This document shows positions 3,106 through 45,415 of a DNA stretch of 64,000 nt, one piece after another. The notes under the pieces were generated by a model. The model was not told the DNA's origin. It saw only the letters and a list, made by a program, of their open reading frames with translations, and did no database searches. A program made the position numbers and the translations under genes. Within the stretch, counting starts at the first letter, position 1. The number at the start of each line of letters is the position of its first letter. Source of the DNA: Zhihengliuella halotolerans (GTDB lineage: Bacteria > Actinomycetota > Actinomycetes > Actinomycetales > Micrococcaceae); the NCBI RefSeq assembly GCF_004217565.1, contig NZ_SHLA01000001.1:2542001-2606000 (forward strand). The letters run 5' to 3'.

Positions 3106-3153
3106 GCCGCCGTTCCGACCGGCCGCCTTGCGGCTTCCGGTCGGAACGGCGGC
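3106..3153 (-). terminator. strong hairpin downstream of the sulfatase gene
   Basis: A perfect 17-bp inverted repeat (3106-3122 with 3137-3153) around a 14-nt loop begins 7 bp beyond the sulfatase stop codon. It reads as an intrinsic-type terminator for the leftward transcript, without a clear U-tract. Confidence 0.7.
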
Positions 3154-5691: not shown

Positions 5692-7665
5692 CTAGCCACC
5701 GGCCTCGTCCTTCGGCTGCTGCTCTCGGAACGCCGCGGGGATCTCGCCGGTCACGGGGTCCCAGCCGTCTGCCCATTCGCCGGTGTCGTAGCGGTAGCCG
5801 ACGGGCTCACCGTCCTCATTGGTGCGCTGGTACCAATCGGTGTAGTCGTCGTGGGCCGAATCGACGTCCGCTCCCGCGCCCGCCCCCGGCTCGCTCTCAA
5901 CGACCTGCAGGGCGAAATCGTCTCCGTACTGGTCGACGCCGCTCATGACCGCGTTGTTGACCGCCGTCTCGGCGTACTGGTGCCGCAGCGCGTAGGGGTC
6001 GGTCCGCAGTTCACGGAACCAGGCCACGACGATCATGATCATGACGAGGGCGAACGGAGCGGCCGTGACGATGACCAGCTGCTGCAGGCCAGCCAGCGCC
6101 GACGACTCCCCCAGGAGCAGCATCACGATCGCGATGCCTGACATCACCAGGCCCCAGAAGACCACGACCCAGCGGCGTGGCGTCGGGTTCCCCTGCGTGG
6201 TGAGCATGCCCATCACAACCGAGGCGGAGTCGGCCGAGGTGATGAAGAAGATCGCGAGCACCACGATGGCGACGGCGGGTACCCATTCCGCGTACGGGAG
6301 GTTGTCCACGATGGTGAAGAAGACCTGGGGCGGCGCCATGTCCGCCGAGAATCCCTCGCGCCCCTCCCGGTACATCCAAATGGCCGTTCCGCCCATGACG
6401 CCATAGGCGAGGAACAGGAAGGAGGACGGGATGAGGATCGTGCCCAGCACGAACTGGCGGATGGTCCGGCCACGGGAAATGCGGGCGATGAACGTGCCGA
6501 CGAAAGGCGACCAGGAGATCCACCACGCCCAGTAGTAGACCGTCCAACCGGATTGGAAGGTCTCGGTCTCCGCCCCCCAGGACAACGAGCGCCCCATCAT
6601 GTCGAACAGGGAACCCAGGTAGGACATCAGCGACGACGGGAGCAGGTTCAGGAGGAAGAGCGTCGGACCGAGGAACAGGACCAGCCCGACAATGCCCAGC
6701 GTCAGAACGATGTTGATGCTGGAGAGGTAGCGGATGCCCCGGGCCACTCCGGAGACTGCGGACACCACGAACCCCAAGGTGAGGACGAGGATGACGACGA
6801 CGAGCATGTTATTCGTCAGCGGGCCCGCATCGGTGACTATGCTGACACCCGTTCCGATCTGCATGGCGGCGATGCCCAGCGCAGCGGCCGTACCGAACAG
6901 CGTGGCGATGATCGCGAAGATGTCGACGATCTGCCCGGCGAAGCCTTCGGTCTGCCGCTTGCCGAAGAGCGTGCGGAAGATGGAGGACATCAGGAGCGAC
7001 CGGCCGCGCCGATACGCGGCGTAGGCGATGGCACCGCCCACCAGCGCGTACATCGCCCAAGCGTGGAAACCCCAGTGGAAATAGGTCTGGGCCATCGCAC
7101 CGTGCATCGCTTCGATGCTCTCCGGCTCGCTGGTCAGCGGTGGTGGCGACAGGTAGTGGGACAGTGGTTCCGACGGTCCGAAGAAGAGGACACCGATGCC
7201 GATGCCGGCGGCGAAGAGCATGGCGACCCACGAAAATGTGCTGAACTCCGGCGTCTCACCATCCTTGCCGAGAGGGATCTTGCCGTAGGGTGACAGCGCC
7301 ATCCCGATGAGCGCGACGAGCAGGACGATCGCAACGACATTGAAGAGCCAACCGAGGTTCGACGTCGTCCAGTCGAAAGCGCCTTGGGCGACTGAGGCGA
7401 CGCTCGCGGAATCCACGACACCCCAGATAACGAAGGCGACGGTGAGGCTTCCGGCGGTCACGAAGATGGGCAGACTGAACCGGTATCGACGACGTTGTTC
7501 GTCGATGGAAATTCCCGGGACCAGCACAGGATGCGTATCGTGCGGATACTTCGGAAGCCGGTAATCCAATCGTCCGAGAGACTTTCCGGCACGACGACCA
7601 GCGCGCCTCGCCTCAGCTTCTATCTTTCGTCGAACAGAATCGCGTTTACTACCATTTTCGGGCAT
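5692..7665 (-). CDS. BCCT-family choline/betaine-type transporter
   Basis: Secondary transporter of the betaine/carnitine/choline family, about 12 membrane helices, importing a quaternary ammonium compound. The 657-aa product has the BCCT signature around W-A-W-W-I-S-W-S-P-F-V-G-T-F-I-A-R-I-S-R in TM8, and F-A-A-G-I-G-I-G-V-L-F-F-G earlier. A ~70-residue basic N-terminal tail and a ~100-residue acidic C-terminal tail with Tyr/Trp-rich ending are cytoplasmic; long tails in BCCT proteins often act in osmosensing. Adjacent choline-sulfatase makes choline-O-sulfate or choline the likely cargo, but glycine betaine is also possible. Confidence 0.9.
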   Translation of the reverse strand: MPENGSKRDSVRRKIEAEARRAGRRAGKSLGRLDYRLPKYPHDTHPVLVPGISIDEQRRRYRFSLPIFVTAGSLTVAFVIWGVVDSASVASVAQGAFDWTTSNLGWLFNVVAIVLLVALIGMALSPYGKIPLGKDGETPEFSTFSWVAMLFAAGIGIGVLFFGPSEPLSHYLSPPPLTSEPESIEAMHGAMAQTYFHWGFHAWAMYALVGGAIAYAAYRRGRSLLMSSIFRTLFGKRQTEGFAGQIVDIFAIIATLFGTAAALGIAAMQIGTGVSIVTDAGPLTNNMLVVVILVLTLGFVVSAVSGVARGIRYLSSINIVLTLGIVGLVLFLGPTLFLLNLLPSSLMSYLGSLFDMMGRSLSWGAETETFQSGWTVYYWAWWISWSPFVGTFIARISRGRTIRQFVLGTILIPSSFLFLAYGVMGGTAIWMYREGREGFSADMAPPQVFFTIVDNLPYAEWVPAVAIVVLAIFFITSADSASVVMGMLTTQGNPTPRRWVVVFWGLVMSGIAIVMLLLGESSALAGLQQLVIVTAAPFALVMIMIVVAWFRELRTDPYALRHQYAETAVNNAVMSGVDQYGDDFALQVVESEPGAGAGADVDSAHDDYTDWYQRTNEDGEPVGYRYDTGEWADGWDPVTGEIPAAFREQQPKDEAGG

Positions 7666-11072: not shown

Positions 11073-11093
11073 CCGGCGAAACCGTACCCAAGC

Positions 11094-11140
11094 GGTTCCC
11101 CATAGTTACAGTTTCGCCTAAACTGTAACTATGGGGAACC
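11094..11140 (+). promoter_or_regulatory. 21-bp perfect inverted repeat overlapping the Fic start codon
   Basis: Arms 11094-11114 and 11120-11140 are perfectly complementary around a 5-bp spacer. The right arm contains the ATG at 11131, and a TAAACT -10-like hexamer (11119-11124) lies 6 nt before it. It may be an operator bound by the winged-helix end of the Fic protein itself, or an mRNA hairpin that hides the start codon. Confidence 0.6.
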
Positions 11141-12360
11141 CGGGAGGAACACTTTCGCTGCCCGTCACGCCTCTCGGCTACGAAGACCACACGTGGATCG
11201 CCGAGTCGGACGGGATGTCGTCACGCGCCGCCCTCGCCGCTGGTTCCGGACCCTACCGCTCGGCGGTCGTCCCGCCGATCTCACAGCTGTCCGTCCATCT
11301 GGACGGGAGCATGAGCGCCGATTCGGAAGAAGCCGTCGCGGCGTTGGCATCGTTCGACCGCTACGCGTCCTCGCGACTCGGAAGCCAGTCGACGACCCTG
11401 GGCCCCATGTCAGCGGTTCTCCTGCGCACCGAATCCACCTCCTCATCCCAGATCGAGAATCTCACGGTCGGCGCACGCCAACTGGCACTGGCGGAGCTCG
11501 ACCAGTCCACCAGCGACAACGCTCGGGTCGTGGTCGCCAACGTGCGTGCCATGGAGGCGGCCCTACGCCTCGCGGACGCCCTCGATCTCAACGCGATCCT
11601 CACGATGCACGCCGAGCTGATGGCCGGCCAACGGGGTTGGGAAGTACATGCCGGACGTCTGCGAGAGCGGCTTGTCTGGGTGGGGCGTTCGGCTGTCAGC
11701 CCTCGCGGCGCCTCGTTCATCGCCCCGCAACCCGAACTCGTTCCCGCCGCTCTCGCCGACCTGACGGAGTTCATGCGCCGGGACGACCTCCCCGTTCTCG
11801 TGCAGACAGCCATCGCGCACGCGCAGTTCGAGACCATCCATCCCTTTGTCGACGGCAACGGCCGGACCGGCCGCGCCCTTGTCCACGCGCTGCTGCGCGC
11901 CAAGAACATCCTGACGCAGACCACCGCCCCGGTCTCCGCCGGGCTGCTCCGCCGCACCGAGTCCTACTTCGAGGCTCTGACCGCCTACAGATCGGGAGAC
12001 GCGGCCCCCATCGTCGCCGAGTTCGCGGGGGCCGCCCGCTTCGCGGCGCGGACGGGTGAAGACCTCGTCGATTCGCTGGAAGACCAGCTCGACGCCGCCC
12101 GGCGCAGCATGTCGTCGCTGCGCCCGCAAGCTGCCGCGTGGAGGGTACTCCCGCATCTCGTAGCCCACCCGGTGATCAACGCGCACCTCGTCTCCCGCCT
12201 GCTCGGTACCTCCGGAACGACGGCGCAGCGCGCGCTCGCCCAGCTGACCGAGGCCGGCGTGCTCAGCGAGCGCAGCGGATTGAAACGCAATCGCGTCTGG
12301 CAGCACGGCGGGATCCTGGGCATCCTCGACACCTACGCCGCCGAGCTGACCCGGCGTTAG
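11131..12360 (+). CDS. Fic-domain AMP-transferase with C-terminal winged helix
   Basis: Fic-family protein (409 aa), expected to transfer AMP (or another NMP) from NTP to a protein hydroxyl. The active-site motif [12 protein letters not shown] is complete at 237-248 (His237). An inhibitory-helix motif of the [S/T]xxxE[G/N] type is present upstream at 105-110 (S-S-Q-I-E-N), which makes it class II, self-inhibited. The last ~70 residues form a winged-helix domain ([19 protein letters not shown]) suited to DNA binding. There is no Shine-Dalgarno sequence before the ATG; GGGAGG falls after it, so translation is probably leaderless. No antitoxin gene is adjacent. Confidence 0.88.
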
Positions 12361-15446: not shown

Positions 15447-15597
15447 ATGGTTCTCCCACTCCCGACTCGTCATCTACATTGCGGTCCACCGCGACGTCAG
15501 TCCACAGCCGTGCCTTCCTCACAGCTGCCTTGAGGCGACCGGGCATAGCCTGTCCGCATGACGCTCATCCCGCGCGATCCCTTGAGGGCCTGGCTCA

Positions 15598-15608
15598 ATG
15601 TCAGACAT
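15598..15608. promoter_or_regulatory. small palindrome in the toxin-antitoxin promoter
   Basis: ATGTC-A-GACAT, a perfect 5-1-5 repeat just upstream of a TACAAT -10 hexamer (15615-15620) whose downstream edge is 6 nt from the antitoxin ATG. A likely autoregulatory site for the antitoxin. Confidence 0.5.
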
Positions 15609-15626
15609 AGGTACTACAATGGAGTG

Positions 15627-15905
15627 ATGAAGTCGATCAGCAAGAGAGACTTGAACCAGAAGACCGCAGAGGTGCTCGACCGGATCTCCGCGGAGGACGA
15701 GCCCGTTCTCGTCACGGAACGAGGGAAGCCGCGGTGGCGGATCGAACCCGTTGACGGCCACACCGACCTGTGGGACAAGCTGCGCGCCGAGGGCCGCCTT
15801 TCGAGCCCAAAGACAGTCGAAACACCATGGCCGACCGAAAATCCGGGCGACTACACGCAGGCAGAAGTTGACGTTCTTCTCGACTGGGCGAAGGGCGAGC
15901 ACTGA
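15627..15905 (+). CDS. Phd/YefM-family antitoxin
   Basis: Antitoxin of a type II pair (92 aa). The N-terminus M-K-S-I-S-K-R-D-L-N-Q-K-T-A-E-V-L-D is the Phd/YefM DNA-binding fold, followed by P-V-L-V-T-E-R-G-K-P-R-W-R-I. The acidic, Pro-rich C-terminal half would wrap and neutralise the toxin. The ATG at 15627 was preferred to the longer in-frame ORF because homologues start at M-K-S-I and a -10 element lies directly upstream. Its TGA shares one base with the toxin ATG (TGATG), the usual coupling. Confidence 0.88.
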   Translation: MKSISKRDLNQKTAEVLDRISAEDEPVLVTERGKPRWRIEPVDGHTDLWDKLRAEGRLSSPKTVETPWPTENPGDYTQAEVDVLLDWAKGEH

Positions 15906-16300
15906 TGCGCTGGTACCTCGATTCCTCCGTGGCGCTTGACGTGGTGCTGCGCCCGCTTGGCCGCTCGGCCTCGTGGATGAAGTCCAATCTGACAGGGGGT
16001 GACGAGTTCGCTTCCTCGTCGCTGTTGAAACTCGAAGCTACCCGTGTCCTGCGCCGGGAGAACCTGGCCCTTCACTCCGCGGATCACGTGCTGAACAACG
16101 CCTCGTTCTTCGGCATCGACGGCGGCGTCCTCCGGTTCGCTGCCGCCATCGAGCCCCACATCAAATCCCTGGACGCCATCCACCTGGCGACCTGCTCGCT
16201 ACTCGGTTCCACCGTGACCCTGGCCAGCCATGATCAGCAGATGTTGGCCGTCGCGGAAGAGCTCGGCCTCGACGTGCACGATCCGCGCAGCCGTTCCTGA
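15905..16300 (+). CDS. VapC-type PIN-domain toxin
   Basis: PIN-domain ribonuclease toxin (131 aa). All four metal-binding acidic residues are present: Asp6 (W-Y-L-D-S-S-V-A), Glu44 (L-K-L-E-A-T-R), Asp90 (K-S-L-D-A-I-H-L-A-T) and Asp110 (L-A-S-H-D-Q-Q-M). Family members cleave RNA, often tRNA or rRNA; the target here is unknown. It starts on the last base of the antitoxin stop, so the two are translated together. The gene appears intact. Confidence 0.9.
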   Translation: MRWYLDSSVALDVVLRPLGRSASWMKSNLTGGDEFASSSLLKLEATRVLRRENLALHSADHVLNNASFFGIDGGVLRFAAAIEPHIKSLDAIHLATCSLLGSTVTLASHDQQMLAVAEELGLDVHDPRSRS

Positions 16301-44650: not shown

Positions 44651-45415
44651 ATGAGCTCGACTGTATCCCGCGCCATCGAGATCTTGGAGCTGTGCAGCGC
44701 AGAGCCGAGGACCGCGGCCCAGATCGCCGCGGTCCTCGGCGTGCACCGCACCACGGTGCTGCGCACACTGCTGACGCTTCAAGACGCCGGGCTGGTCCGC
44801 CAGACGGAGACCGGAGTGTTCGGCACGGGGTTTCGCCTGGCCGCCCTCGCAAAGTCGGCGATGGCGCACTTCGATCTGCGGGGCATCGCCCACCCGCACC
44901 TGAAGGATCTCAGCGACCGCATCGGCGTGACCGTGCAGTTCGCCGTTCCGGACAGGGACCGCATCCGCTACGTCGACAAGATCGAGCCACGAGACTCAAT
45001 CGTGCTCAACACGGAAATCGGGGGCGACGCCGTGGTCAGCACGTCCGGCGTCGCCAAAGCGATACTCGCCCACCTTTCGGGCGAGCGCCGACGATCGATT
45101 CTCGACCGCGCGACGTTCGAGACATTCACCGAACGCTCGATCACGAGCAGGGAAGCGTTCGAGCGCGAGCTCACCCGAGTGCAGGAGCGGGGCTGGTCAT
45201 TCGACGACGGGGAATACGACGAGCTGTCCAACTGCATCGCCGCCCCGGTCCGCGATCATGCCGACGACGTCGCCGGGGCCGTTTCCATCACGGCCTTCCG
45301 CACGCGGCTCGACATCGATGCCCTCCAGCAGCACCTGCCGGCCCTTCTGACCACGACGGAGGCCATCAGCCGGGACCTGGGCTGGCGCGGCAGCGCCGGG
45401 TCTGGATCCGCGTGA
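44651..45415 (+). CDS. IclR-family transcriptional regulator
   Basis: IclR regulator (254 aa): N-terminal winged HTH (S-R-A-I-E-I-L-E-L-C-S-A-E-P-R-T-A-A-Q-I, residues 6-60) and the C-terminal effector domain with G-V-A-K-A-I-L-A-H-L and S-N-C-I-A-A-P-V-R-D. ATG directly after GAGGGA. Last gene of the coupled MFS-SDR-RbsD-IclR unit, probably controlling it through the palindrome at 41956-41970. Confidence 0.92.
   Translation: MSSTVSRAIEILELCSAEPRTAAQIAAVLGVHRTTVLRTLLTLQDAGLVRQTETGVFGTGFRLAALAKSAMAHFDLRGIAHPHLKDLSDRIGVTVQFAVPDRDRIRYVDKIEPRDSIVLNTEIGGDAVVSTSGVAKAILAHLSGERRRSILDRATFETFTERSITSREAFERELTRVQERGWSFDDGEYDELSNCIAAPVRDHADDVAGAVSITAFRTRLDIDALQQHLPALLTTTEAISRDLGWRGSAGSGSA

Follow-up and report, generated by a model that had tools for sequence, protein, structure and literature searches.

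The 64,000-nucleotide stretch of Zhihengliuella halotolerans DNA analyzed in this study (contig NZ_SHLA01000001.1, positions 2,542,001 to 2,606,000), referred to below as the window, contains a fic gene whose start codon is covered by a long inverted repeat. An aldo-keto reductase gene lies upstream on the same strand, and the palindrome begins about 22 bp past its stop codon. The next gene downstream of fic is thiE, on the opposite strand, with a reading frame that overlaps the fic stop codon. The features of the locus, in window coordinates, are as follows.

11082..11091, minus strand: degenerate upstream half-site H1, within GGCGAAACCGTACCCAA, 70% complementary
11094..11140, no strand assigned: predicted main operator, an inverted repeat with dyad axis at 11117; the Z. 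salsuginis ortholog has the same core
11102..11111, plus strand: half-site H2, ATAGTTACAG, 10 bp, family geometry
11119..11124, plus strand: predicted -10 element TAAACT of a leaderless promoter, 6 nt upstream of the ATG
11123..11132, minus strand: half-site H3, CTGTAACTAT (the reverse complement of ATAGTTACAG), family geometry
11131..12360, plus strand: fic gene, 409 aa, with Fic_N, Fic, and C-terminal winged-helix domains; start at 11131, predicted to be leaderless
11143..11152, plus strand: degenerate downstream half-site H4, GGAGGAACAC followed by TTTCG, in coding sequence, 60% complementary
11443..11460, plus strand: class II inhibitory motif (S/T)xxxE(G/N), S105-S-Q-I-E109-N110
11839..11874, plus strand: catalytic Fic motif, residues 237-248, fitting HxFx(D/E)GNGRxxR
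12136..12306, plus strand: winged helix-turn-helix domain, about residues 336-392
12211-12258, plus strand: recognition helix, about residues 361-376

The palindrome (GGTTCCCCATAGTTACAGTTT-cgcct-AAACTGTAACTATGGGGAACC) consists of two perfect 21-bp arms (11094-11114 and 11120-11140) separated by 5 bp, as seen both on reading the sequence and in a repeat search, which also returned a longer version (39 nt, 79%). An earlier note on this DNA had claimed a perfect 21-bp palindrome over the Fic start codon, and this is confirmed, with the ATG at 11131 located in the right arm. Its score of 21 is the highest of any inverted repeat in the 64-kb window, the runners-up scoring 17 and 15, and even a score of 13 was reached by none of 580 dinucleotide-shuffled versions of homologous start regions. 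With up to three mismatches allowed, the 3.58-Mb genome contains the core a single time, and the 13-bp half-site is confined genome-wide to the two palindrome arms with up to two mismatches allowed; no regulon of further operator sites was found by these core and half-site scans. Two other inverted repeats in the window may be mentioned. One, at 3106-3153, is strong and G+C-rich, with 17-bp arms and no T-run after it. The other, a 15-bp repeat at 44704-44740, apparently lies within an ORF that looks like the N-terminal part of an IclR-type regulator and is probably due to chance in coding sequence.

The window protein (Pfam Fic match, 2.9e-20) has both sequence hallmarks of class II Fic adenylyltransferases, that is, the catalytic and the inhibitory motifs. 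The former is intact in 117 of 119 homologs, and the latter, located N-terminal to it, is present in 84 of the 119. The closest solved structure is the Fic-domain protein of PDB entry 7cb8, matched over residues 47-403 (E 3.8e-54), C-terminal domain included. The C-terminal DNA-binding domain claimed in the earlier note is borne out by a profile of this region built from 18 relatives, which matches the Fic structure 7cb8 and MarR-type regulators such as AdcR, SlyA, and ZitR. MarR_2 scores 18.3 bits in the single window protein, under the Pfam cut-off of 27, and is matched by 11 of the 18 members of the profile. The winged-helix assignment is one of profile comparison, an AlphaFold model of the window protein run with one ortholog being unusable (pLDDT 34). 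Outside the window, the same genome encodes another, distantly related Fic protein (27% identity; G000:C1:2680680-2681516). Judged by eye, two adjacent small ORFs at window positions 15558-16300, of 115 and 131 aa, resemble an antitoxin of Phd/RelB type paired with a PIN-type toxin.

The start codon of fic is preceded by the layout TAAACT-GTAACT-ATG. The TAAACT hexamer, conserved in Zhihengliuella salsuginis, lies within the inverted repeat, where the earlier note had presumed a -10 element, and is a plausible one. The same note's remark that no Shine-Dalgarno sequence lies upstream also agrees with our reading of the sequence: none precedes the ATG at 11131, and the sole GGAGGA-like string (about 11143-11149) is inside the ORF. 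A TANNNT motif 6-7 nt before the start codon, in the absence of a Shine-Dalgarno sequence, is the pattern of leaderless actinobacterial genes. Among 111 homologous loci, 65 have TANNNT exactly 6 nt ahead of a possible start codon; other spacings account for 0 to 8 loci each, save spacing 16 with 25 loci, an excess that we ascribe to some operators having another TANNNT 10 bp upstream of the first. The fic transcript probably starts at the ATG and is leaderless, and therefore the missing Shine-Dalgarno sequence would not be needed. We rejected a downstream CTG start, with the in-frame GGAGGA serving as Shine-Dalgarno sequence, since CTG is seldom used as a start and the relatives use the same or neighbouring start codons.

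An exact scan for the palindrome core in 84,980 species genomes, from which those nearest to the window's own were possibly left out, yielded two records. In Z. salsuginis the fic ortholog (88% identical) has the palindrome over the same start codon. An extra gene lies between the aldo-keto reductase gene and the palindrome, so that the palindrome goes together with fic. The two sequences differ symmetrically in both arms at a single position outside the core (CCCC/GGGG in the window, CTCC/GGAG in Z. salsuginis), and the same difference makes codon 2 GGG in the former and GAG in the latter. The second record is an assembly named Kocuria polaris (G073), from the same genus group as the window. 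Here about 1.17 kb of fic is lost, leaving an in-frame remnant of 24 codons (MGNSVDTHPSLRRLDTYAAALTRR), and the predicted -10 element reads GAAACT, not TAAACT. We counted the retention of the palindrome despite the deletion of fic against an autorepressor function.

This locus (L003, the same as L074; Kocuria polaris MS50-16, MLDA01000023.1, about 6107-6240), with fic deleted and the operator intact, is a natural example of a predicted operator without its repressor.

For a wider comparison, homologs were collected across the family (200 genomes) and the class (395 genomes), and further regions were added. An inverted repeat scoring at least 10 was found in 48% of 116 homolog start regions versus 1.9% of 2117 control windows taken from the same loci, the proportions being valid for this sample of loci, whose proteins were picked from those most similar to the window protein. 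When the proteins are clustered at 70% identity, the counts are 24 of 52 start regions and 20 of 921 controls. In about half of the homologs the searched span contains no strong palindrome, and many of these still score well at the fixed geometry described below. The palindromes differ in sequence from clade to clade, with half-sites such as ATACCAAAGG, TTACGCAACG, TTAGCATCGG, TTAACTTCAC, TTACCAACAC, TTACTATCAC, and TTTTCTCATTA, the window half-site being ATAGTTACAG. Recurrence at homologous Fic starts was the conservation half of a refuting test set in advance by the earlier note, and on this half its proposal stands.

In most leaderless loci the dyad axis is located exactly at -25.5 relative to the start codon, with half-sites of unrelated sequence. 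When all possible centres are scanned, complementarity peaks at -25.5 with 0.75 for all loci and 0.69 for clustered ones, over a background of 0.26 (sd about 0.05); the set was selected by TANNNT-N6, a choice that itself fixes positions -12, -11, and -7. In these loci the right half-site has the -10 element as its outer edge. Exceptions are the window and Z. salsuginis, with the axis at -14.0; in the window, the final two bases of H3 are the A and T of the fic start codon. In their nearest relatives (loci L006 and L007) the axis is at -25.0 and the start codon four codons downstream. It looks as if in the window clade the operator stayed in place, and the -10 element and start codon moved 12 nt upstream into it, a derived arrangement. 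The half-sites in the window are spaced as 10-N11-10 (31 bp), and those of most leaderless relatives as 10-N12-10.

Alignment of the loci on the palindrome axis revealed further two-fold symmetry at +20.5 and -20.5 bp (0.50 and 0.37, respectively), which after clustering amounts to 0.43 at +20.5 and 0.42 at -20.5 over a background of 0.26 (sd 0.03). The corresponding window axes are 11096.5 (0.70), 11117 (1.00), and 11137.5 (0.60), that is, the H1/H2 dyad is centred exactly -20.5 bp from the main axis and the H3/H4 dyad, weak alone in the window, at +20.5 bp. The upstream dyad of Z. salsuginis is 82% complementary at -20.0. Taken by themselves, the outer half-sites of the window are unconvincing, and the argument for them as candidate sites is the exact phase that they have in common with the family. 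In many leaderless relatives the third half-site consists of the start codon and codons 2-4, for instance, ATGGCATCGGAT beside TTAGCATCGGAT or GTGACTTCACTT beside TTAACTTCACTT, and therefore the N-terminus of the protein appears to be constrained by the operator sequence. The comparison shows that the start codons and first codons of leaderless genes double as predicted operator DNA.

Further half-sites formed by the start codon and codons 2-4 (positions 0 to +11) were seen at loci L088, L089, L091, L093, L120, L122, and others. A different arrangement occurs at the Shine-Dalgarno-led loci L009-L012, L059, L064, L065, and L070, where at least three alternating half-sites are located upstream of fic.

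Similarity of half-site positions 4-10, the three outer positions shared with the -10 element being left out, was compared with that of 16-residue protein windows in 33 clustered leaderless loci. The best of 93 protein windows is residues 356-371, which overlap the recognition helix (partial r 0.42, with whole-protein similarity controlled). For the recognition helix itself (361-376) the partial r is 0.41 (0 of 2000 permutations); the homologs being related, p-values in these comparisons are not fully independent, and the permutation test takes no account of the tree. An earlier test with loosely extracted arms had given a partial r of 0.13 (p 0.007), with r 0.06 (p 0.12) for a flank control, and the signal was sharpened by fixing the half-site frame. 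This statistical association is the strongest evidence that the Fic protein may read its own operator. Together with the palindromes of the homologs, it lends comparative support to the proposal of the earlier note that Fic represses itself by binding its own start site. In the view of that note, such control would tie AMPylation activity to autoregulation.

We thus consider it very likely that the palindrome is an autorepressor operator on a leaderless fic promoter, bound by the winged helix of Fic. Two copies of the C-terminal winged helix would bind the inverted half-sites ATAGTTACAG...CTGTAACTAT, and the bound protein would occlude the -10 element together with the start points of transcription and translation, turning fic transcription off. 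Further subunits are probably recruited by the weaker half-sites located two helical turns (20.5 bp) away on each side. As for the purpose, a potentially toxic AMPylase related to the SoFic anti-phage proteins may be kept low until needed. The palindrome and its recurrence, the leaderless spacing and fixed geometry of the loci, and the co-variation of helix and half-site can be read from the compared genomes; from them we infer binding by Fic, repression as the sign of its effect, oligomer formation, and the biological role.

A further-reaching version of this model, to which we assign a small chance, makes the operator an allosteric partner. The phased half-sites would assemble an inactive, DNA-bound Fic oligomer, and ATP binding, self-AMPylation, or infection would release it, yielding active AMPylase and derepression simultaneously.

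Any dimeric regulator could use such a palindrome, binding by Fic being our own inference, and the site might therefore belong to a regulator other than Fic. We regard this as improbable: the similarity of half-sites follows the winged helix that the fic gene itself encodes, the site is single in the genome and located at fic, and a separate regulator would have to be exchanged in parallel in every clade.

The alternative offered in the earlier note is an RNA hairpin sequestering the start; a transcript begun upstream would fold into the 21-bp stem and hide the start codon. In its favor are a very stable predicted RNA stem (-50.4 kcal/mol for 100 nt, z -7.7) and possible read-through from the aldo-keto reductase gene. 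However, every perfect DNA palindrome folds as RNA, and the predicted leaderless transcript has no left arm, so that the whole hairpin is not expected to form. In many homologs the palindrome is wholly upstream of the start, including the Shine-Dalgarno-led arrays at about -95 to -15, and RNA pairing explains neither the fixed axis at -25.5 nor the co-variation with the recognition helix. Since the genes look leaderless and the palindromes of the Shine-Dalgarno-led relatives are well upstream, this alternative is disfavored and seems very improbable.

Quasi-palindromes can be corrected to perfection by template switching, which may explain the symmetry beyond the 10-bp half-sites. That the whole structure is a terminator or repeat element of the reductase gene, or a palindrome without function perfected in this way, is hardly to be believed: the short distance to the reductase stop codon and persistence in a congener without fic speak for it, but the stem is not followed by a T-run, the Z. 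salsuginis palindrome is still found at fic although another gene separates it from the reductase gene, and palindromes recur at fic starts throughout the family.

The proposed self-repression has a known parallel. CccR of Yersinia pseudotuberculosis, a secreted type VI effector, is a class II Fic protein with a C-terminal HTH that represses itself via a palindrome; its dimer binds its own promoter, as demonstrated by footprinting, EMSA, and a lacZ fusion (PMC9755527). Compared by description, the window protein resembles it in the Fic class, the C-terminal HTH, and the palindrome at its own promoter, located in CccR near -35 and -10. In contrast, the CccR operator is 10-N26-10 (46 bp), a geometry that the window palindrome does not have, being 10-N11-10 (31 bp) with phased side sites, and the start codon of CccR is not reported to be inside its operator, whereas that of the window gene is. 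Nor does anything examined here point to type VI secretion of the window protein. No other autorepressing Fic-HTH protein was found in the open-access literature. Thus the principle of autorepression is not new, as CccR had already demonstrated it (2022). What appears new from the comparison is the fixed geometry, the co-variation of operator and helix, the half-site array, and the leaderless start embedded in an operator. Autorepressing MarR-type regulators also have, by profile, the same winged-helix fold and a palindrome over their own promoter; unlike in these, the winged helix of the window protein is fused to an enzyme.

The PADLOC SoFic model (PDLC03963) matches the window protein nearly over its full length (E 2e-69, residues 54-399), and the NCBIfam SoFic equivalog scores 68.1 bits, far below its cut-off of 550. 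A small AS1-type gene downstream of fic was not found at the locus. In the available text of PMC12249575, Sofic is described as a dimer whose C-terminal domain moves upon ATP binding, with no DNA binding described there; for the window Fic such binding is predicted. A role of the window Fic in anti-phage defence is a reasonable guess.

These observations suggest that self-repression is common throughout a large family of actinobacterial Fic proteins with winged helices. The comparison predicts binding sites for dozens of family members from sequence alone, and the matched recognition helices and half-sites form a natural series for decoding specificity. Should the operator be an allosteric partner as well, DNA would take the place of an antitoxin, and paralogs sharing a cell would be insulated from one another by the divergence of their helices and half-sites.
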